From PS1 clade bacterium (lineage in GTDB: Bacteria; Pseudomonadota; Alphaproteobacteria; RS24), in contig QOQK01000001.1 in NCBI GenBank assembly GCA_003331985.1, positions 1 through 64,000 of the forward strand: a stretch of DNA of 64,000 nucleotides, read 5' to 3'. The number at the start of each line of letters is the position of its first letter. Positions within the stretch are counted from its first letter, which is position 1. The notes beneath the pieces were generated by a model that was given only the letters and a program-made list of their open reading frames with translations, had not been told where the DNA came from and made no database searches. A program made the translations under genes and the position numbers. Of the stretch, positions 47,918 to 55,836 are shown piece after piece.

Positions 47918-48427
47918 TTACTTTAACTTTTGAGGGGCGATAAGCACACCATCAGCATCGGCATATAGCCATGCGCCAGGGTAGATATTAACCCCATCAA
48001 TACGAAGCGGGACATTAATACTGCCCACACCACGTTTGACGCTCTTTTTAGGATGTGTACCCAAGGCTTTAATCCCGACATTAGCTTCAGCCAATTCAAG
48101 CGTATCTCTTACAAAACCATTTATCACAATGCCGGCCCAACCATTCGCTTCAGCAAGCTCGCCCAGATTGCCACCAAGTAGGGCGCACCGGGTGGAGCCG
48201 TGACCATCAACGACAATCACCTGCCCCTCCCCCTTACTTTCCAGCAATTCTCTCAGCGCTCCATTATCCTCAAATGTATCGAGTGTCACAATCGGCCCGC
48301 TGAAAGCTAAGCGCTTCCCAAAATCTCTGAACGCCAGCCCGAGATAAGCCAGTTCGTCAGAGTAAGCATCTGACAAGTCGGCTGTGCAAATTAACTCTCC
48401 GGGTGTTGGTTCAGAAGTTCCAGCCAT
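47918..48427 (-). CDS. RraA family protein (ribonuclease E regulator-like / aldolase-like)
   Basis: A 169-residue protein of the RraA fold. Family motifs are STADLSDAYS-like TADLSDAYSDELAYLG at the N-terminus, VIVDGHGSTRCALLGGNLGE and GWAGIVINGFVRDTLEL. In metal-dependent HMG/oxaloacetate aldolases of this fold an Asp follows the Arg; here it is Cys (TRC), so the RraA-type role in inhibiting RNase E fits better. The start overlaps the aceA stop by one base, so it is expressed with isocitrate lyase. Convergent with the HupE-like gene. Confidence 0.85.
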   Translation of the reverse strand: MAGTSEPTPGELICTADLSDAYSDELAYLGLAFRDFGKRLAFSGPIVTLDTFEDNGALRELLESKGEGQVIVVDGHGSTRCALLGGNLGELAEANGWAGIVINGFVRDTLELAEANVGIKALGTHPKKSVKRGVGSINVPLRIDGVNIYPGAWLYADADGVLIAPQKLK

Positions 48428-50031
48428 TAGAACTGGTTCATGGTGTTATCTTCACCAGATGCCAGTAGGGCATTATCACCAGAGAAATATTCTTTATGGT
48501 CATCCCCGATATTTGAACCGGCAAGGTCTTGGTGCTTCACAGATGCTTGACCGCGACGGATTTCTTGACGCTGAATATCACGAACATAAGCCAGCATGCC
48601 CAAGTCTCCGAAGTAACCTTCAGAAAGCATATCCGTTCCAAGAGCTGTTTCGTGATAAGTCGGCAGAGTAATCAGATGGTGGAAAATACCAGCCTCACGA
48701 GCGGCATCCGCTTGGAAAGATTGAATGAGCTGATCGGCTTCACCTGCCAGTTCGGAAGCATCAAATTCGACGCTCATCAAACCACGCGGAACCTCTATCG
48801 GATCTGGATAGGCTGATACGTCTTTACCCGCAGCTGACCACTCAGCATAAACTTGCTCGCGGAAGGACAACGTCCAGTTAAAGCTTGGAGAGTTATTATA
48901 AACCAGCTTGGCATTCGGAATAACCTCACGAACACGGTTCACCATGCCGGCAATCTGGTCGAGATTAGGCTTTTCGGTTTCAATCCAAAGCAAATCTGCT
49001 CCGTTTTGGAGACTGGTGACACAATCAAGCACAACCCTGTCTTCACCGGATCCGTCTCGGAAGGCATAGAGGCCATTCGGCAAACGATGTGGTTTCACAA
49101 GGTCATCATTATGTTTGAAAACAATATCGCCTTCACCTAACGCAGCCGCGTCTGTTACCGGTTCAGTTTTCAAGAATGCATTATACTGGCTAGCCAAATC
49201 ACCTGGTTGTTGAGAGACAGGGATTTTTTGAGTCAGTCCGGCTCCAAGTGAGTCAGTCCGCGCAACGATGATACCATCATCAACACCTAACTCTATAAAG
49301 GCATAGCGAACGGCATTAATCTTGGCGAGGAAATCCTCATGTGGCACCGTCACTTTACCATCTTGGTGACCACATTGTTTGGCATCAGAAACTTGATTTT
49401 CAATCTGAATACAGCACGCACCCGCTTCAATCATTTTCTTGGAAAGCAAATAAGTTGCTTCTTCATTACCAAAGCCAGCATCTATATCTGCAATAATCGG
49501 CACGATGTGGGTCTGGAAGTTATCAATCTTATTGAGAACAGCATCAACGTCACCACCGGCAGCTTTGACCTCATCCAGCTCAACAAACAAATGTCTCAGC
49601 TCTCTGGCATCCGCTTGCTTCAGAAAGGTATAAATCTCTTCAATCAAACTGGATACGGCTGTTTTTTCATGCATAGACTGATCCGGAAGCGGACCAAAAT
49701 CTGAACGCAGAGCCGCAACCATCCAACCGGAGAGATAAACATAACTTCGATTAGTCGTTTGTTTGTGGCGCTTAATCGCCATCATCATTTGCTGGGCGGT
49801 AAAACCATGCCAGCAACCGAGAGACTGCGTGTATTTCGAGGTATCGCCATCATAGTTTTCCATGTCAGCGCGCATGATAGAAGCTGTATAGCGCGCAATG
49901 TCCAGACCGGTTAGAAACCTGTTCTGAAGACGCATGCGGACAGCATATTCAGGGTTAATTCCGCCCCATGCATCACCGTTAGATGTTTTGGCGGCTGTTA
50001 AAGATTTAACCTGCTCAAGATAGTTTGACAT
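48427..50031 (-). CDS. aceA: Isocitrate lyase
   Basis: AceA splits isocitrate into glyoxylate and succinate, the entry to the glyoxylate shunt used for growth on acetate and fatty acids. The sequence is of the long proteobacterial class (534 residues from ATG 50031). The catalytic loop reads SDAKQCGHQDGKVTVPHEDF, with the catalytic cysteine in KQCGH. The substrate region YNNSPSFNWTLSF is also clear. I chose ATG 50031, preceded by GAGAGG; the frame is open to 50103. No malate synthase is in the window. The divergent ScfR-like regulator probably controls it. Confidence 0.95.
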   Translation of the reverse strand: MSNYLEQVKSLTAAKTSNGDAWGGINPEYAVRMRLQNRFLTGLDIARYTASIMRADMENYDGDTSKYTQSLGCWHGFTAQQMMMAIKRHKQTTNRSYVYLSGWMVAALRSDFGPLPDQSMHEKTAVSSLIEEIYTFLKQADARELRHLFVELDEVKAAGGDVDAVLNKIDNFQTHIVPIIADIDAGFGNEEATYLLSKKMIEAGACCIQIENQVSDAKQCGHQDGKVTVPHEDFLAKINAVRYAFIELGVDDGIIVARTDSLGAGLTQKIPVSQQPGDLASQYNAFLKTEPVTDAAALGEGDIVFKHNDDLVKPHRLPNGLYAFRDGSGEDRVVLDCVTSLQNGADLLWIETEKPNLDQIAGMVNRVREVIPNAKLVYNNSPSFNWTLSFREQVYAEWSAAGKDVSAYPDPIEVPRGLMSVEFDASELAGEADQLIQSFQADAAREAGIFHHLITLPTYHETALGTDMLSEGYFGDLGMLAYVRDIQRQEIRRGQASVKHQDLAGSNIGDDHKEYFSGDNALLASGEDNTMNQF

Positions 50032-50195
50032 GATTTGCCTCTCATATTGTCTGCGTCTGCCGATCGGGGCTGAGTTTTCCGGCTGACCTGAAATAAATGG
50101 CAACTGGTAACGAAATATTTAATTACGTTGGAATTGCCGATATGTGGAGGAAGAAAATCCCCGATAAATGTCTCCACAAATAAGTCCTGAGTTCT

Positions 50196-50311: not shown

Positions 50312-51757
50312 ATGAGTGAAGTTAGAGGCACAAATCAGGATAGAAAACTGTTTGCCGGCATGCGCATTCGCAGGCTGCGTCGCGACCTAGGACTCACGCA
50401 AGCCGTTATGGCAGATTCACTTGGAATCTCAACAAGTTATCTTAATTTGATCGAACGCGACCAGCGCCCCGTTTCAGCACAAATTCTTATCAAAATGGTT
50501 GATGTTTTCGACATAGACCCACGCGGCCTAGCAGGTGACGAAGAGGCCCGTGCTTACACCCAATTACGCGAGATTTTTGCTGACCCGATGTTCCATGACA
50601 CACCCGTTGCAGATCAAGAAATACGCGATATTTCTGCCGCCAGCCCAAATGCAGTGGATGCGATTGCTCGTCTATTCCAAACCTATCGCGATGCCAGCAC
50701 AACATCATCTATGCTGGCCGAGCGTCTGGCAGACAACACCCATGGCGAAACCACCAGCGCATTAATGTCATTTGAGGAAGTCCGGGACTTTATCAACCAG
50801 CGCTCTAATCACTTTCCTGAACTCGATGATTATGCCGAGGAACTCTTTATGAAAGCGGGTCTGGTTGATGACGACCCCTTTCTTGCGCTCAGACACTATC
50901 TCCAAGAAACTCACGGCGTATCAACACGCATTGGACCGGTTGATTTAATGGGAGATGATTTAAGGCGTTACGACCGTCACCGCCAGACCTTGTTTCTTTC
51001 GGAACTACTCAATCAATCCAGCAGAGCCTTTCAGATTGCTTATCAACTCGCCTATTTTGAACATAGCAAAGCTGTTGAGGAAATTATCAATGGTTCCAAA
51101 CTGGAAAACCCGGAAGCTCAACGTCTCGCGCGACTAGCCTTAATAAATTATGCCGCCGCAGCTATTTTGATGCCGTATGGTATTTTTCTACAAACCGCGG
51201 AAGATAATGGATATGACATTACACTTCTCAGCCGACGCTTTGGCACCAGCTTCGAGCAAGTGTGCCATCGGCTGACAACCCTGCAACGCCCAGGTGCGAA
51301 AGGTGTGCCGTTTTTTCTTATACGTATCGACAATGCAGGAAACGTCTCTAAGCGTTTTGCCGCGGGTGGATTTCACTTTTCACGATTTGGCGGCACCTGC
51401 CCACGCTGGAATATTCACGACAGCTTCAGACAACCCGGTAAAGTCATGACTCAAATCATCTGTATGGAGGATAGTACTCGTTATTTCTCTGTCAGCCGCA
51501 CAGTAAGCCGAAACCGCTCTGCCTTTGACAAGCAGGATAATCAATTTGCTATCGGGCTTGGTTGTGAGATTTCCCATGCCAGCAAGCTGGTTTATTCACA
51601 TCAGTATAATCTTGAAGAAACCAAAAGTGATATGCCCATTGGGGTGAATTGTCGACTTTGCGAAAGATTGGATTGTCACCAGCGGGCCACACCGCCTTTG
51701 ATGCGAAGTTTACGGGTGGATGATAATATTCGCGGCTTATCACCTTTTGACTTTTAA
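50312..51757 (+). CDS. XRE-family regulator of short-chain fatty acid / glyoxylate metabolism (ScfR/RamB-like)
   Basis: A 481-residue transcription factor. An XRE helix-turn-helix (residues about 14-72: MRIRRLRRDLGLTQAVMADS, then GISTSYLNLIERDQRPVS) is followed by an ImmA/IrrE-like domain and a C-terminal DUF2083-type domain. That last domain has conserved cysteines (CRLCERLDCHQR) and RSLRVDDNIRGLSPFDF. This architecture is that of regulators sensing acyl-CoA or propionyl/acetyl-CoA state and controlling aceA, prp or related genes. No ribosome site precedes the ATG, and the nearest promoter-like pair would start transcription at the ATG. Confidence 0.9.
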   Translation: MSEVRGTNQDRKLFAGMRIRRLRRDLGLTQAVMADSLGISTSYLNLIERDQRPVSAQILIKMVDVFDIDPRGLAGDEEARAYTQLREIFADPMFHDTPVADQEIRDISAASPNAVDAIARLFQTYRDASTTSSMLAERLADNTHGETTSALMSFEEVRDFINQRSNHFPELDDYAEELFMKAGLVDDDPFLALRHYLQETHGVSTRIGPVDLMGDDLRRYDRHRQTLFLSELLNQSSRAFQIAYQLAYFEHSKAVEEIINGSKLENPEAQRLARLALINYAAAAILMPYGIFLQTAEDNGYDITLLSRRFGTSFEQVCHRLTTLQRPGAKGVPFFLIRIDNAGNVSKRFAAGGFHFSRFGGTCPRWNIHDSFRQPGKVMTQIICMEDSTRYFSVSRTVSRNRSAFDKQDNQFAIGLGCEISHASKLVYSHQYNLEETKSDMPIGVNCRLCERLDCHQRATPPLMRSLRVDDNIRGLSPFDF

Positions 51758-51845: not shown

Positions 51846-53321
51846 ATGGCCAAAAAACAGAAAATATTCAAACCAAAAGCGCGTATTCCCCGCGGTTTAC
51901 GAGATATGCAAGGATCTGAACTGGCTTTTCAGAAGCTGATGCTTGAAAAAATTTCAGGCGTTTATGAAAGCTATGGCTTTGATGCATTGGACACATCTGC
52001 CTTTGAGTACGCTGATGCATTGGGCAAATTTCTTCCGGATGATGACCGCCCCAATGAAGGCGTTTTTTCCTTCGAAGATGATGACGGACAATGGCTAAGC
52101 ATGCGCTATGATCTGACGGCCCCTCTGGCGCGTTTTGTTGCCGAGCATTATGACCGGCTTCCTAAACCTTTCCGCCGCTATCAATGGGGATCGGTTTTCA
52201 GAAATGAAAAACCCGGACCTGGCAGGTTCAGACAATTTCTGCAAATAGATGCCGATACTGTTGGTGCAGGGGGCAGTCAAGCGGATGCCGAAATGTGCCT
52301 GATGGCAGCCGACTGCATGAAAACGCTCGGCTTATCTGACAATCAGTTTTCTGTAAACATTAATAACCGCAAAATACTTGATGCTATTCTAGCGCAGGTT
52401 GGTCTTGACGCGCAGGCTGAGGACTATGATATGCGCCGCCTAACCATTCTACGCGCCCTCGACAAACTCGACAGGCTTGGCATTGGCGGTGTCGCTGATT
52501 TACTCGGCGACGGGCGAAAGGATGAAAGCGGGGATTACACAAAAGGCGCGGGGCTAGATAAAGCATCCATTTCAAAGCTGACGGATTTTGTGCAAGCCGG
52601 TCGGGATACGCGCGCGGACACCCTAAAAGCCCTCGCAGAAATTATCGGTGACTCAGAAATCGGCACGGCCGGATTAGAAGAACTCACCCTTATGGACGCC
52701 TTAATGAAAGATGATAGCGACAGCATCCGTTTTAATCCGTCGGTTGTGCGTGGTCTCGGTTATTATACTGGTCCAGTTTTCGAAATTGAGTTGAATATCG
52801 AAACTGAAGACGAAAACGGCGAAATCGCTCGTTTTGGATCCGTCGGTGGTGGCGGGCGCTATGATGATCTTGTAAAACGCTTTAAAGGCATTGAAATCCC
52901 GGCAACAGGTATTTCAATAGGCGTCAGTCGCCTAGCTGCCGCGCTCACCCTACTTGGCAAAGCCGACACCAAGACCACGCAGGATTTGGTGGTCTTGCTG
53001 GTCATGGATAAAACCCGTTTGGCGGAAACCTCTGAGTTGGTTAAAACACTGAGAAATTCAAGCATACGCGCTGAAATGTATATGGGTGACAGTGGGATGA
53101 AAGCACAAATGCGTTACGCCGATAACCGCAATGCCCGCCTTGTGGTCATAGAGGGTGAGGATGAGCTAGCCGCCGGTATTGTAACCCTGAAAGACCTTCA
53201 ATTGGGGCAACAAAATGCCCAAAATATTAAAGATAATGAAGAGTGGCGCGCCTCTGAACATGCACAAACACAAGTTTCTCGCAAGGACTTGGCCCAGAAA
53301 ATCAAAGAAATACTGTCCTAG
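51846..53321 (+). CDS. hisS: Histidyl-tRNA synthetase, alphaproteobacterial type
   Basis: HisRS charges tRNA-His. The 491-residue class II synthetase has RIPRGLRDMQGSE at the start (motif 1 follows), motif 2 as FRRYQWGSVFRNEKPGPG, and motif 3 near SVGGGGRYDDLVKRF and GISIGVSRLAAAL. The motif 2 loop RNEKPGPGRFRQF differs from the common bacterial RHERPQ form. It is characteristic of alphaproteobacterial enzymes that recognise a tRNA-His lacking the extra G-1. It precedes hisZ-hisG after a 170-base gap. Confidence 0.95.
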   Translation: MAKKQKIFKPKARIPRGLRDMQGSELAFQKLMLEKISGVYESYGFDALDTSAFEYADALGKFLPDDDRPNEGVFSFEDDDGQWLSMRYDLTAPLARFVAEHYDRLPKPFRRYQWGSVFRNEKPGPGRFRQFLQIDADTVGAGGSQADAEMCLMAADCMKTLGLSDNQFSVNINNRKILDAILAQVGLDAQAEDYDMRRLTILRALDKLDRLGIGGVADLLGDGRKDESGDYTKGAGLDKASISKLTDFVQAGRDTRADTLKALAEIIGDSEIGTAGLEELTLMDALMKDDSDSIRFNPSVVRGLGYYTGPVFEIELNIETEDENGEIARFGSVGGGGRYDDLVKRFKGIEIPATGISIGVSRLAAALTLLGKADTKTTQDLVVLLVMDKTRLAETSELVKTLRNSSIRAEMYMGDSGMKAQMRYADNRNARLVVIEGEDELAAGIVTLKDLQLGQQNAQNIKDNEEWRASEHAQTQVSRKDLAQKIKEILS

Positions 53322-53333
53322 CCTTTTCTTTCA

Positions 53334-53476
53334 TTGACATAATATCGCACCAATATTCATAAATTATGAATACTCTCATTTAATTTTGTAAATAATTTAG
53401 ATATTTTATATTTATGAAGTTCATTTTTTATGTAATTAGCTAATAATTCATTTTTCTTGATTTAATAATGAACTTC
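53334..53476 (+). promoter_or_regulatory. Promoter and palindromic TTCAT/ATGAA operator candidates upstream of hisZ
   Basis: TTGACA (53334-53339) and TCATAA (53357-53362) have a 17-base spacer. The 19-base near-palindrome TATTCATAAATTATGAATA (53354-53372; perfect 9-base arms around one A) covers the -10. Downstream are the palindrome ATGAAGTTCAT (53414-53424), TTCAT (53447-53451), and a perfect 10-base inverted repeat GAAGTTCATT (53416-53425) / AATGAACTTC (53467-53476). Six TTCAT or ATGAA half-sites fall within about 120 bases of very AT-rich sequence. Confidence 0.55.
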
Positions 53477-53491
53477 TGACATAAAAACACC

Positions 53492-54802
53492 ATGACCCGA
53501 TTAACCACAGCAACTGACGTGATTGATGCCCTGGGAGGGACGCAGGCCGTCGCGCGCCTGCTCAATGTCGGCGCATCTGCTGTATCGAATTATCGCCGCC
53601 TAGGTTTCCCTGCCCGCGCCTATTACAAGCTATCTCAGGCTTGCGCTCAAAAAGGGCTTGATGTTGCTGAGGCTGTTTTTGGGGGTCTTCAATCTCTTGA
53701 AACCACGCAACCAATGAGAGCCCCATTTCATCAGTTAAGAACCGGAGTTCAGGCCGGAGTTCATAAAAGCAGTACCAAAGAAACCGGAGCTATGGGCTTT
53801 TTGGCAAACCTTATTGAAGATGGTTATGAACCCGTCACACCTTCCATACTCCAGCCTTCCTCACCATTTGTTGATAGGATGGGGCCGGAAATGCAACGTC
53901 GTCTTTTTACATTTACCGACCCGGCAGGCGACCCCTTATGTTTAAGGCCGGATTTAACCATCCCAACAGCGCTCGAACACTTAAAGCGCGGCAGGGATGG
54001 TGAGAAGCGTTATTGCTATCAGGGGACAGCATTCCGCTATCAACCTCGCGGCAGTGGTAAGCCCGAAGAATTCACCCAGCTTGGTATCGAGATTATCGGT
54101 GAAGCGACAGATGGCACTCCGCAAAAGCAAGCAAATGAAGCTGAAGTTTTTGAACAAATATTAAAAACCATACTTACCTGCGGAGTCAGGGGGTTTCAAA
54201 TCGTCTTTAATGATATGTCTTATCTGGCAGATAGGGTTGATGATTATGCCTTTTCCGATGCCTTTAAAAACCAATTAAAAAGACGATTGATGCAAAACGA
54301 CAGCTTGGAAGACATTCAACAAACGCTCACGACGCTTTCACAAAATACAGCCCCTCCGCCCAACCCGGTACGCATGAATTTTGAGGCAACGGATAATATT
54401 ATCGGGCGCTCAGGTGCTGAAATCTTCGCGCGTCTGGAACGCAAGCAACAAGAAAGCCAGAACACCGCGTCTGATTTGAAGGAATTACATCGTATGCGCG
54501 CCGATTTAGATAAACAATCAGAAGGCAACTCAAATCCACCTGATTTTGCGCGTCCTCTTATTGAGCCGGCGCTGAAGATGAGCTGTCGGGAAGATCAACT
54601 TATCTATGCCCCTAATCTTGGTCAGAAAATGGCTTACTATACCGGCTTATTTTTTGAAATTCATGTGCCGGCATTGCAGGAAAAGCGGGTCATTGCTTCA
54701 GGCGGGCGATATGATGATTTACTGCACAGCCTCGGCGCAGAAAGTCCCATTCCTGCAATTGGCGGAGCCATCGCGCTTGAACGACTGCAGGAGGCAATAT
54801 AA
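53492..54802 (+). CDS. hisZ: HisZ (ATP phosphoribosyltransferase regulatory subunit) with N-terminal helix-turn-helix-like domain
   Basis: Residues from about 85 onward are HisZ, a catalytically dead paralogue of HisRS that activates HisG and senses histidine. Supporting motifs are LIEDGYEPVTPSILQPSSPF, FTDPAGDPLCLRPDLTIPTA, RYCYQGTAFRYQPRGSG and the C-terminal VIASGGRYDDLLHSLGA. The first 65 residues or so do not belong to HisZ. They contain VIDALGGTQAVARLLNVGAS and AVSNYRRLGFPARAYYKL, the helix-turn-helix pattern of small Cro-like proteins of alphaproteobacteria. The gene has no ribosome site and follows an AT-rich, palindrome-rich region. It overlaps hisG by one base. Confidence 0.88.
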   Translation: MTRLTTATDVIDALGGTQAVARLLNVGASAVSNYRRLGFPARAYYKLSQACAQKGLDVAEAVFGGLQSLETTQPMRAPFHQLRTGVQAGVHKSSTKETGAMGFLANLIEDGYEPVTPSILQPSSPFVDRMGPEMQRRLFTFTDPAGDPLCLRPDLTIPTALEHLKRGRDGEKRYCYQGTAFRYQPRGSGKPEEFTQLGIEIIGEATDGTPQKQANEAEVFEQILKTILTCGVRGFQIVFNDMSYLADRVDDYAFSDAFKNQLKRRLMQNDSLEDIQQTLTTLSQNTAPPPNPVRMNFEATDNIIGRSGAEIFARLERKQQESQNTASDLKELHRMRADLDKQSEGNSNPPDFARPLIEPALKMSCREDQLIYAPNLGQKMAYYTGLFFEIHVPALQEKRVIASGGRYDDLLHSLGAESPIPAIGGAIALERLQEAI

Positions 54803-55836
54803 TGCCAATTGATTTGAATGATGAACCCCAAGACCTCAAAACCTTTATCCTTGCCGTCCCGTCCAAAGGCCGCCTTGAGGAGAAGTCTGCCGAGATTTTT
54901 TCTAAAGCGGGCTTGACCCTAATACGCGACGGCGCCCGTGGCTATCAGGGAGAGATGGCTGGCATTGATAGTGTAAGGGTAGAATATGTGTCTGCCGGAG
55001 ACATCGCCGCACGGCTAGCGGAAGGTTCGGCGCATATGGGCATAACCGGCGAAGATTTACTGCGCGAAGAAATCGCCGATTTCAACAGTGCCATTCATCT
55101 AGTCAGTCCGCTTGGTTTCGGGCAAGCCGATGTTGTTGTTGCGATACCTGATGGATGGGTTGATGTCACGACCATGAACGACCTTGCCGATGTCGCCGCC
55201 GAATTTAGAGCCAGACACGGGCGACGCTTGCGTGTGGCAACGAAATACACTCATCTCACAACCGATTTCTTTGGGCGGCACGGCGCCGATGACTGCGAAC
55301 TTGTGCAAAGTTTTGGCGCAACCGAGGGCGCCCCCGGCTCTGGTGCGGCAGAGGCGATTGTCGACATCACCTCAACTGGCGCAACCCTGGGGGCAAATAA
55401 CCTGCGTATTCCTGAAGATGGGGTCATACTAAAAAGTGAAGCTCAACTGGCGGCATCCTTGAAGGCAGACTGGTCAGATAAGGCACGCGCGGCGGCAAAA
55501 TTTATACTGACACGCCTGGAGGCTTACCAGATCGCCAAAAAACAAATCAAAGTCTCCCTCAGATCTTCACCCGGCATGGCTTCTCCAAAATTAAATCCCC
55601 AAAAAGAAATTAGGGAACTAAACGAAAAATATGACGCAAAACTGGTTGATATGTTCACCGGGTCAACCGATCAAGGGTCATCCTATACCTTTGTATTGCC
55701 GGCCAACCAACAGGCGGCATTTATGGATGATATGATAAGCAATCAGCTTTTTGCGATTGGGGAAGTGTCAAAACCGGATTTTCTGTATTTTCAGCGATGT
55801 GAAATGCTGGAGCGTTTATTGGGTCGGCTGGTTTAA
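54802..55836 (+). CDS. hisG: ATP phosphoribosyltransferase catalytic subunit, with C-terminal extension
   Basis: HisG starts histidine synthesis from ATP and PRPP. The core (residues about 14-225) has AVPSKGRLEEKSAEIF, the HMGITGEDLL segment, GHRRLRVATKYTHLTTDFF-like RRLRVATKYTHLTTDFF and the PRPP loop EAIVDITSTGATLGANNLR. A HisZ-dependent, short-form HisG usually ends soon after this point. Here about 115 further residues follow, so the protein has 344. I do not recognise this part; it may be a diverged form of the regulatory C-terminal domain of long-form HisG. A perfect AGGAGG ribosome site lies in the end of hisZ. Confidence 0.93.
   Translation: MPIDLNDEPQDLKTFILAVPSKGRLEEKSAEIFSKAGLTLIRDGARGYQGEMAGIDSVRVEYVSAGDIAARLAEGSAHMGITGEDLLREEIADFNSAIHLVSPLGFGQADVVVAIPDGWVDVTTMNDLADVAAEFRARHGRRLRVATKYTHLTTDFFGRHGADDCELVQSFGATEGAPGSGAAEAIVDITSTGATLGANNLRIPEDGVILKSEAQLAASLKADWSDKARAAAKFILTRLEAYQIAKKQIKVSLRSSPGMASPKLNPQKEIRELNEKYDAKLVDMFTGSTDQGSSYTFVLPANQQAAFMDDMISNQLFAIGEVSKPDFLYFQRCEMLERLLGRLV

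Follow-up and report, generated by a model that had tools for sequence, protein, structure and literature searches.

INTRODUCTION

The biotin ligase-repressor BirA, PutA and NadR are 'trigger enzymes', in which a DNA-binding domain sits on a protein of the very pathway that it regulates; BirA carries an N-terminal helix-turn-helix (HTH) on a class II synthetase-like domain and acts as a repressor of the pathway that it serves. Autorepression is the classic role of Cro-type domains, which are found in standalone Cro proteins. That enzymes can evolve into regulators by taking up a DNA-binding domain is well accepted, and BzdR consists of an HTH fused to a shikimate kinase-like domain that has lost its enzymatic activity (PMC3602430). 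For histidine biosynthesis, another study describes HisR, a TrpR-family repressor of his genes that is also present in 11 Rhodobacterales/Caulobacterales genomes (PMC9413887). ATP phosphoribosyltransferase is an octamer built around a tetramer of HisZ, its regulatory subunit, and the histidine pocket lies in HisZ (PMC9734150).

Here we analyse a window of 64,000 nucleotides (the whole stretch of DNA under study) from a PS1 clade bacterium, which encodes an HTH fused to HisZ. The initial annotation of this DNA knew of no described HisZ of such a kind, and a literature search at the title and abstract level found no description either. Likewise, no such protein was described in the titles and abstract openings of the literature on HisZ with a DNA-binding domain, on a repressor or operator role of HisZ or on HTH-enzyme fusions, and no paper was found on the name carph-isopro, which belongs to the HTH model NF046037.

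Compared with the HisZ of the short-form ATP phosphoribosyltransferase (PF13393, NF008953/TIGR00443; 1z7m, 3od1, 5m8h, 8oy0), the fusion protein shares the HisRS-like domain without an anticodon-binding domain, the hisG neighbour and the LRPDLT, YYTG and GGRYD stretches, but adds an N-terminal Cro-like HTH and a linker; reading by eye found neither in 31 other HisZ proteins of the class. It resembles BirA, PutA and NadR in carrying a DNA-binding domain on a protein of the pathway concerned, although for HTH-HisZ the regulation is inferred, and it resembles BirA also in placing the HTH on a class II synthetase-like fold. One criterion for membership among the trigger enzymes, a DNA-binding-type domain fused to a pathway protein, is fulfilled; the differences are that the HTH is Cro-like and not winged, that the pathway is another one and that the partner is a non-catalytic allosteric subunit. 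With P22 Cro, Xfaso 1 Cro, YdaS (PF14549, PF15943) and carph-isopro it shares the fold and a weak sequence match, but Cro proteins stand alone, whereas this HTH is joined to a biosynthetic regulator. BzdR (PMC3602430) and HTH-HisZ are both metabolic proteins that recruited a DNA-binding domain through a linker, but HTH-HisZ retains the HisZ motifs and the hisG neighbour. HisR and HTH-HisZ are alike as predicted protein repressors of histidine biosynthesis with a palindromic operator in Alphaproteobacteria, but HisR is a separate TrpR-family protein with a 20-bp motif of another sequence (PMC9413887). The Trp repressor model is absent among the Pfam matches to the window protein at E values up to 10 (with filters that drop most matches above about 0.1). 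A metabolic protein turned regulator by a DNA-binding domain is a kind already known; an HTH-HisZ with a well-defined predicted operator is, as far as titles and abstract openings show, new.

RESULTS

A divergent HisZ between hisS and hisG

The fusion gene (53492..54802, forward strand), recognised by its open reading frame, profile matches and relatives, encodes 436 amino acids. It lies between hisS (51846..53321; TIGR00442, 369.8 bits), encoding histidyl-tRNA synthetase with its anticodon-binding domain, and hisG (54802..55836; TIGR00070, 161.3 bits), encoding ATP phosphoribosyltransferase, and all three genes are on the forward strand. A 170-bp AT-rich gap separates hisS from HTH-hisZ, and the stop codon of HTH-hisZ and the start codon of hisG overlap by one base (TAATG). 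The HisG of the window is 344 amino acids long; its Pfam HisG match stops at residue 240 and the final 100 or so residues are without a convincing Pfam match. Further upstream, an isocitrate lyase gene (48427-50103, reverse strand) is divergent from a gene (50312-51757, forward strand) for an HTH-IrrE-like-ScfRs regulator, a short-chain fatty acyl-CoA regulator, and the two are likely to form a glyoxylate-shunt pair.

The HisZ (HisRS-like) domain was placed by profile matches and alignment at residues 109-432 (53816..54787, forward strand): PF13393 matches these residues with 123.2 bits against a gathering threshold of 25, and HisZ homology sets in at about residues 97-109, NF008953 matching from residue 97. 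PF13393 matches hisS as well and alone does not tell HisZ from hisS, but in Pfam searches HGTP_anticodon is present in the adjoining hisS and absent from HTH-HisZ, which is therefore distinct from hisS. The curated cut-offs for HisZ equivalogs are not met by the window protein (185.3 against 384 bits for NF008953, 132.4 against 271.65 for TIGR00443); the fusion tested from another family, f121, passes that of NF008953 (402.9 bits). Because the NCBIfam cut-offs are missed, the window protein is a divergent HisZ on domain and gene context only, and the membership test of a HisZ next to hisG is met. The LRPDLT, YYTG and GGRYD stretches are invariant in 16 aligned fusions. Histidine binding and activation of HisG by this protein are inferred from its kinship with HisZ, without biochemical data.

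A Cro-like fold is predicted for the N-terminal domain

The initial annotation read the first 65 or so residues as a compact HTH, a reading borne out by structure prediction and by Cro/YdaS-type profile matches. We place the domain at residues 4-65 (53501..53686, forward strand). Residues 8-58 match the Cro/YdaS-type models, each below its curated cut-off: 34.8 bits against 38 for NF046037, 23.2 against 30 for YdaS_toxin and 21.6 against 30.2 for P22_Cro. The NF046037 cut-off is passed by relatives, namely G294 of family f49 (39.0) and three members of f121 (42.8-43.5). With scores under the cut-offs, the window domain can be named Cro-like on its sequence, but we do not place it as a family member.

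The isolated HTH was modelled at a pLDDT of 88.6, with helices at residues 7-14, 17-24, 28-37 and 41-53, and thus passes the check by structure prediction that had been proposed for it. The first three Foldseek matches were chains of Xfaso 1 Cro (TM 0.61-0.65, E 0.03-0.08), with P22 Cro and N15 Cro among the first nine rows, and a second structure aligner also gave Xfaso 1 Cro (3bd1; Z 7.2, 2.1 Å, 59 of 65 residues), its next rows standing at 5.7. In that aligner a Z below 8 may reflect a common arrangement, and the 7.2 obtained here is under the safe level. A sequence profile of the HTH matched P22 Cro and Xfaso 1 Cro as well (E about 2e-4). The membership test for a Cro-type helical fold is met, and judging from the models the closest known folds would be those of phage-type Cro proteins. 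The enzymes HppE and MPnS are also among the fold matches; we know of no DNA binding by their HTH-like domains. The position of the HTH relative to HisZ was not taken from the full-length model, because the quality of that model is only middling (mean pLDDT 66.2, residues 64-101 below 50).

The long reading frame is conserved

The HTH-HisZ fusion is real. HTH and HisZ are joined in a single unbroken frame, as first annotated, but the accompanying claim that there is no internal start was too strong, as ATG codons occur at residues 75 and 101. These lie within or at the end of a variable linker (residues 66-103; 53687..53800, forward strand), delimited by alignment, dN/dS and low pLDDT, and are not conserved between genera. 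When 16 full fusions, drawn from four genera, are aligned, 29 of 64 positions are invariant in the HTH against 65 of 333 in HisZ, and the linker between them changes in length; an alignment of 13 HTHs shows the domain conserved across six genera. For four same-genus pairs, analysed with our own Nei-Gojobori script, dN/dS was 0.15, 0.09, 0.05 and 0.02 in the HTH, 0.81, 0.34, 0.19 and 0.26 in the linker and 0.12, 0.12, 0.08 and 0.10 in HisZ (dS exceeds 1 in part of the third and fourth pairs). By these estimates the HTH codons are under purifying selection, and because the HTH dN/dS is only 0.02-0.15 the long form is taken to be under selection. The long form is the conserved one, and a shorter second product is not excluded.

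HTH-HisZ occurs in three alphaproteobacterial families

The 28 genomes searched from the order of the window's genome all belong to one family (f1), with six genera. hisZ was found in 24 of them, the window's own included, and in 24 of 24 the HTH is in frame at the N-terminus (in G008, G002 and G005 the contig stops downstream of the HTH and truncates the locus, and the locus of G012 contains N's); the same search returned no hisZ in G011, G013 and G018 and only a weak hisS-like match in G023. The initial annotation had proposed this search of related genomes, and would have fallen with the lack of a predicted HTH fold or with a fusion absent from close relatives and due to a misread start. 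Neither is the case, as an HTH fold was predicted and the hisZ-bearing relatives in the order have the fusion throughout. HTH-HisZ is also present in 15 of 18 genomes of family f49, in frames of 454-466 amino acids, and in 4 of 4 genomes of f121, and is carried by IMCC14465, which NCBI places in the PS1 clade, Alphaproteobacteria, and which we take to be a cultured strain.

In a sample of 385 genomes of the class, 14 have this HTH at E 1e-5: five f1 and three f49 genomes with HTH-HisZ, four f109 genomes with the HTH on CoaBC (Pfam confirms CoaBC in three of four, the three scanned), one genome with a PyrB fusion and one with a standalone frame of 68 amino acids. NF008953 matches 355 of the 385 genomes at E 1e-10, mostly weakly, and matches hisS too. 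By our own cut of at least 119 bits, 52 genomes have a clear HisZ; 11 of these carry the HTH, the 31 mentioned above were read by eye as lacking it, and the other 10, unread by eye, gave no HTH match at hisZ in profile searches (the HTH match of G179 is at another place, in a frame of 99 amino acids). In the HisZ tree f121 stands apart from f1 and f49, f1 is near f49 and the HTH-less f98 is placed beside f49; inner support is weak, branches are long and composition warnings were raised, and the tree leaves open whether the fusion had one origin or several. Among the HTH-less hisZ matches, L205, L206, L189 and L181 (G124, G398, G232 and G321, genomes of about 1.2 Mb) contain an in-frame TGA or TAA, which in G232 is merely the codon preceding the start Met.

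A palindrome precedes HTH-hisZ in two families

The segment 53330-53490, which the initial annotation singled out as a likely DNA target, does hold a perfect 5-N5-5 palindrome (predicted operator O1, TTCATAAATTATGAA, 53356..53370) and a copy with one mismatch (predicted operator O2, TTCATTTTTTATGTA, 53420..53434), and the same palindrome stands before the gene in two families. Both predictions, neither assigned to a strand, come from the comparison of upstream regions, with no binding data. O1 is the core of a 9-1-9 inverted repeat at 53354-53372, and O2 is exact in the relative G009.

In 39 regions upstream of HTH-hisZ (24 from f1 and 15 from f49, 5,458 bases, some f1 regions including the start of the coding sequence), the 15-bp palindrome TTCAT-N5-ATGAA occurs in 45 exact copies and in 64 copies at up to one mismatch, the latter in 38 of the 39 regions. 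In a scan of spacers from 0 to 20, no other spacing exceeded 4 exact copies, and the coding controls from the same loci contained 0 (hisS) and 2 (hisZ). Perfect 5-N5-5 inverted repeats numbered 77; in 100 dinucleotide shuffles the figure was 19.0 (sd 4.2) and never rose above 29. Gaps of 1, 3, 7, 8 and 9 were also above the shuffle maxima (52, 62, 55, 38 and 37 repeats); at odd gaps, longer palindromes that share this centre would produce such an excess, which leaves the gap of 8 unexplained.

The exact TTCAT form is present in 30 of the 39 regions, and within f1 alone in 15 of 24, with a TTCAA form in 3 more. All three regions of genus g5 have TTCAA-N5-TTGAA and none has the TTCAT form, so both arms have changed jointly; one region of genus g4 has both forms. 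Kinship among the genomes inflates all of these counts; at the level of genera, all nine have an exact TTCAT or TTCAA form. Upstream of HTH-less hisZ the motif was found at up to one mismatch in 0 of 28 regions, a weak control in that only two of them are AT-rich. Family f121 has a different motif, GTCCTG with a four-base gap. In L217, one of the four genomes, it makes up a 14-4-14 palindrome; by eye, the other three have imperfect copies or half-sites only.

With an A/T centre (TTCATW5ATGAA), the 28 f1 genomes contain 18 sites, 14 of them before HTH-hisZ, each in a different genome, and the remaining 4 within long open frames that belong to other genes; a reversed control pattern, of the same base composition and itself a palindrome, gave 0. 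The 18 f49 genomes contain 35 such sites, 28 before HTH-hisZ and 7 elsewhere (loci unread), against 3 for the control, and the site is absent from the 3 f49 genomes without an HTH match (completeness 83%, 55% and 93%). A chance palindrome is ruled out by the spacer scan, the shuffles and these genome-wide counts. The prediction of a specific operator at the promoter of the protein's own pathway has strong comparative support, and no binding data.

When any centre is allowed, f1 genomes contain 1-10 palindromes each against 0-1 for the control, and most any-centre sites are therefore not at hisZ. Of six such sites outside hisZ in G000, five lie within open frames and one outside frames of at least 90 amino acids. 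The latter (G000:C12:41447-41461, L109; TTCATAAATGATGAA) is, by eye, some way upstream of a dnaA-like gene, and sites of the same sequence occur in G007, G009 and G010 of the same genus; it is a possible second target. A wider his regulon in f1 was considered and no second target is claimed, the 4 other exact A/T-centred sites lying in long open frames (exact sites only).

Site positions relative to candidate promoters

Two weak promoter candidates, both called by a loose consensus, compete in the window. One combines a -35 hexamer TTGATT (53457..53462, forward strand) with a weakly matching -10 hexamer CATAAA (53480..53485, forward strand) over a 17-bp spacer, with 8 of 12 matches, and five of the six regions from the window's genus have a TTGATT/17/CATAAA-like promoter at -34 or -35. 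The alternative, TTGACA-18-CATAAA at -158 (53334..53363, forward strand; 10 of 12), scores better, is ranked first in 3 of the 6 regions (L001, L003 and L020, the window included) and has its -10 (53358-53363) inside O1. A stricter scan returned neither candidate and no other promoter on the forward strand here, and one site on the reverse strand against a shuffle mean of 1.7.

In all six regions from the window's genus a distal site keeps to positions -136 to -138 relative to the start codon, even though region length varies. Seven of ten regions of genus g6 contain TTCATTGACTTTGAA, a one-mismatch site that includes the candidate -35 TTGACT. Family f49 has two sites 39 bp apart in 15 of 15 regions, and the proximal one lies over the candidate -10 in all 14 regions for which a promoter was called. 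This geometry would be consistent with a promoter-occluding repressor, to the extent that promoter calls by loose consensus can be relied upon.

Related HTHs on other metabolic proteins

Cro/YdaS-like HTHs of the same group were seen on the N-termini of many unrelated alphaproteobacterial metabolic proteins, some over and some under the cut-offs. NF046037 matches 115 of the 385 genomes, and 30 of its loci, then 20 more, were read by eye. Its strongest matches (most of L119-L148) fall close to the N-terminal end of large proteins that by eye resemble mitofilin and contain a hydrophobic stretch (FGGIRPMA..TTVQGWK), which may place a DNA-binding-type domain on a membrane protein. Domains over a curated cut-off cap NnrD/NnrE (L143 and L164 by NF046037, L159 by YdaS and P22_Cro), crotonyl-CoA carboxylase/reductase (L147, NF046037), a TorD-like chaperone (L165, YdaS) and PyrB (G139, NF046037, 41.9 bits). 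Under the cut-off are those on ArgB (L154, L157), pyruvate dehydrogenase E1 alpha (L156), CoaBC (L041-L044) and GlmU (L158, HTH found only in the genome search, 28.5 bits); L154 and two relatives counted as over the NF046037 cut-off in the genome search only together with frame neighbours. An 8-5-8 palindrome, AAATTGCGATTAACGCAATTT, was noted upstream of a PyrB fusion (L045/L213). The CoaBC fusions of four genomes have one good upstream palindrome, TTCACAATTTTGTGAA (L211), and otherwise degenerate repeats, and we claim no operator for them. Any regulatory function of these capped proteins remains putative, without functional data.

DISCUSSION

The initial annotation suggested that a DNA-binding domain on HisZ could make one chain both an enzyme regulator and a transcription factor, and the predicted operator at the gene's own promoter supports this, with DNA binding itself still inferred. 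We consider it probable that HTH-HisZ is a regulatory subunit of ATP phosphoribosyltransferase and also a transcription factor for its own operon, acting as a repressor with histidine as the most likely co-repressor. Both DNA binding and the response to histidine are inferences here, as no binding, expression or ligand data stand behind the autoregulation reading. In such a mechanism a flexible linker would tether the Cro-like HTH to HisZ, and the HTHs would dimerise on the palindromes. Because HisZ forms the tetrameric core of the octamer (PMC9734150), the tetramer could present HTH pairs that fill two operators and thereby keep RNA polymerase off the hisZG promoter. Histidine in the HisZ pocket would shift DNA binding, most likely as a co-repressor, an assignment that follows pathway logic only and whose direction is a guess. 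How much of the pathway's first enzyme is made, and how active it is, would then be set by a single protein. Against this reading stands the absence of the exact palindrome from part of f1, where the A/T-centred copy is present in 14 of 28 genomes.

A more far-reaching version is conceivable, although we hold it only tentatively. It proposes that the ATP phosphoribosyltransferase holoenzyme itself is the histidine-responsive repressor, with four HTHs per HisZ tetramer bridging two operators, and with control of catalysis, feedback inhibition and control of transcription in one assembly. It would further be one case of a general alphaproteobacterial capping of metabolic proteins with a Cro-like HTH (HisZ, ArgB, PyrB, CoaBC, pyruvate dehydrogenase E1 alpha, GlmU, NnrDE, crotonyl-CoA carboxylase/reductase), with a separate operator read by each of them.

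The operator evidence for a histidine-responsive repressor serves just as well a protein that binds its own promoter and is blind to histidine, a simple autorepressor reporting free HisZ. In a stoichiometric version of this idea, the HTHs would be hidden in the HisZ-HisG octamer, and unassembled HisZ would shut down hisZG when HisG is scarce. That exact A/T-centred sites lie mostly at the gene's own promoter (14 of 18 and 28 of 35) suits such self-control, as does the reputation of Cro-type domains as autorepressors. Coupling to histidine would nevertheless be cheap for a protein whose HisRS-like motifs are invariant in 16 fusions and whose relatives bind the ligand (PMC9734150), and we think it rather unlikely, though by no means negligible, that histidine plays no part.

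HTH-HisZ might instead activate its own promoter, and in the window's genus the distal site near -136 would be a candidate place for this. Such a role could account for the fixed position of that site in 6 of 6 regions of varying length, but we give it little credence. The geometry is that of a repressor, with the proximal f49 site over the candidate -10 (14 of 15 regions), the g6 site over the candidate -35 (7 of 10) and O1 in the window covering the -10 of the better-scoring candidate promoter. Even less credible is that the HTH-like domain is a structural or protein-contact module that does not bind DNA, the palindromes being owned by another regulator. HppE and MPnS among the fold matches are the best precedent for such a module, and the HTH models do score under their cut-offs; however, the site occurs together with the fusion, mostly at its promoter, and in one genus both of its arms changed together. 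Finally, a misread start, with translation from the ATG codons at residues 75 or 101 and the HTH stretch untranslated, is refuted as the source of the sole product by the codon conservation of the HTH, whose low dN/dS, 29 of 64 invariant positions and persistence over six genera leave such a start, unconserved between genera as these ATGs are, next to no room.

If HTH-HisZ is indeed a histidine-responsive repressor, it would be a self-contained device for histidine feedback, with allosteric and transcriptional control in one chain and no separate regulator, in lineages that have small genomes (assemblies of 0.9-2.0 Mb in the two families with the TTCAT site). The claim is directly testable, as IMCC14465 carries the fusion and the predicted operators are short sequences found mostly at a single promoter. 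The same HTH on other enzymes suggests that the step from enzyme to autoregulator may be an evolutionary route taken repeatedly.
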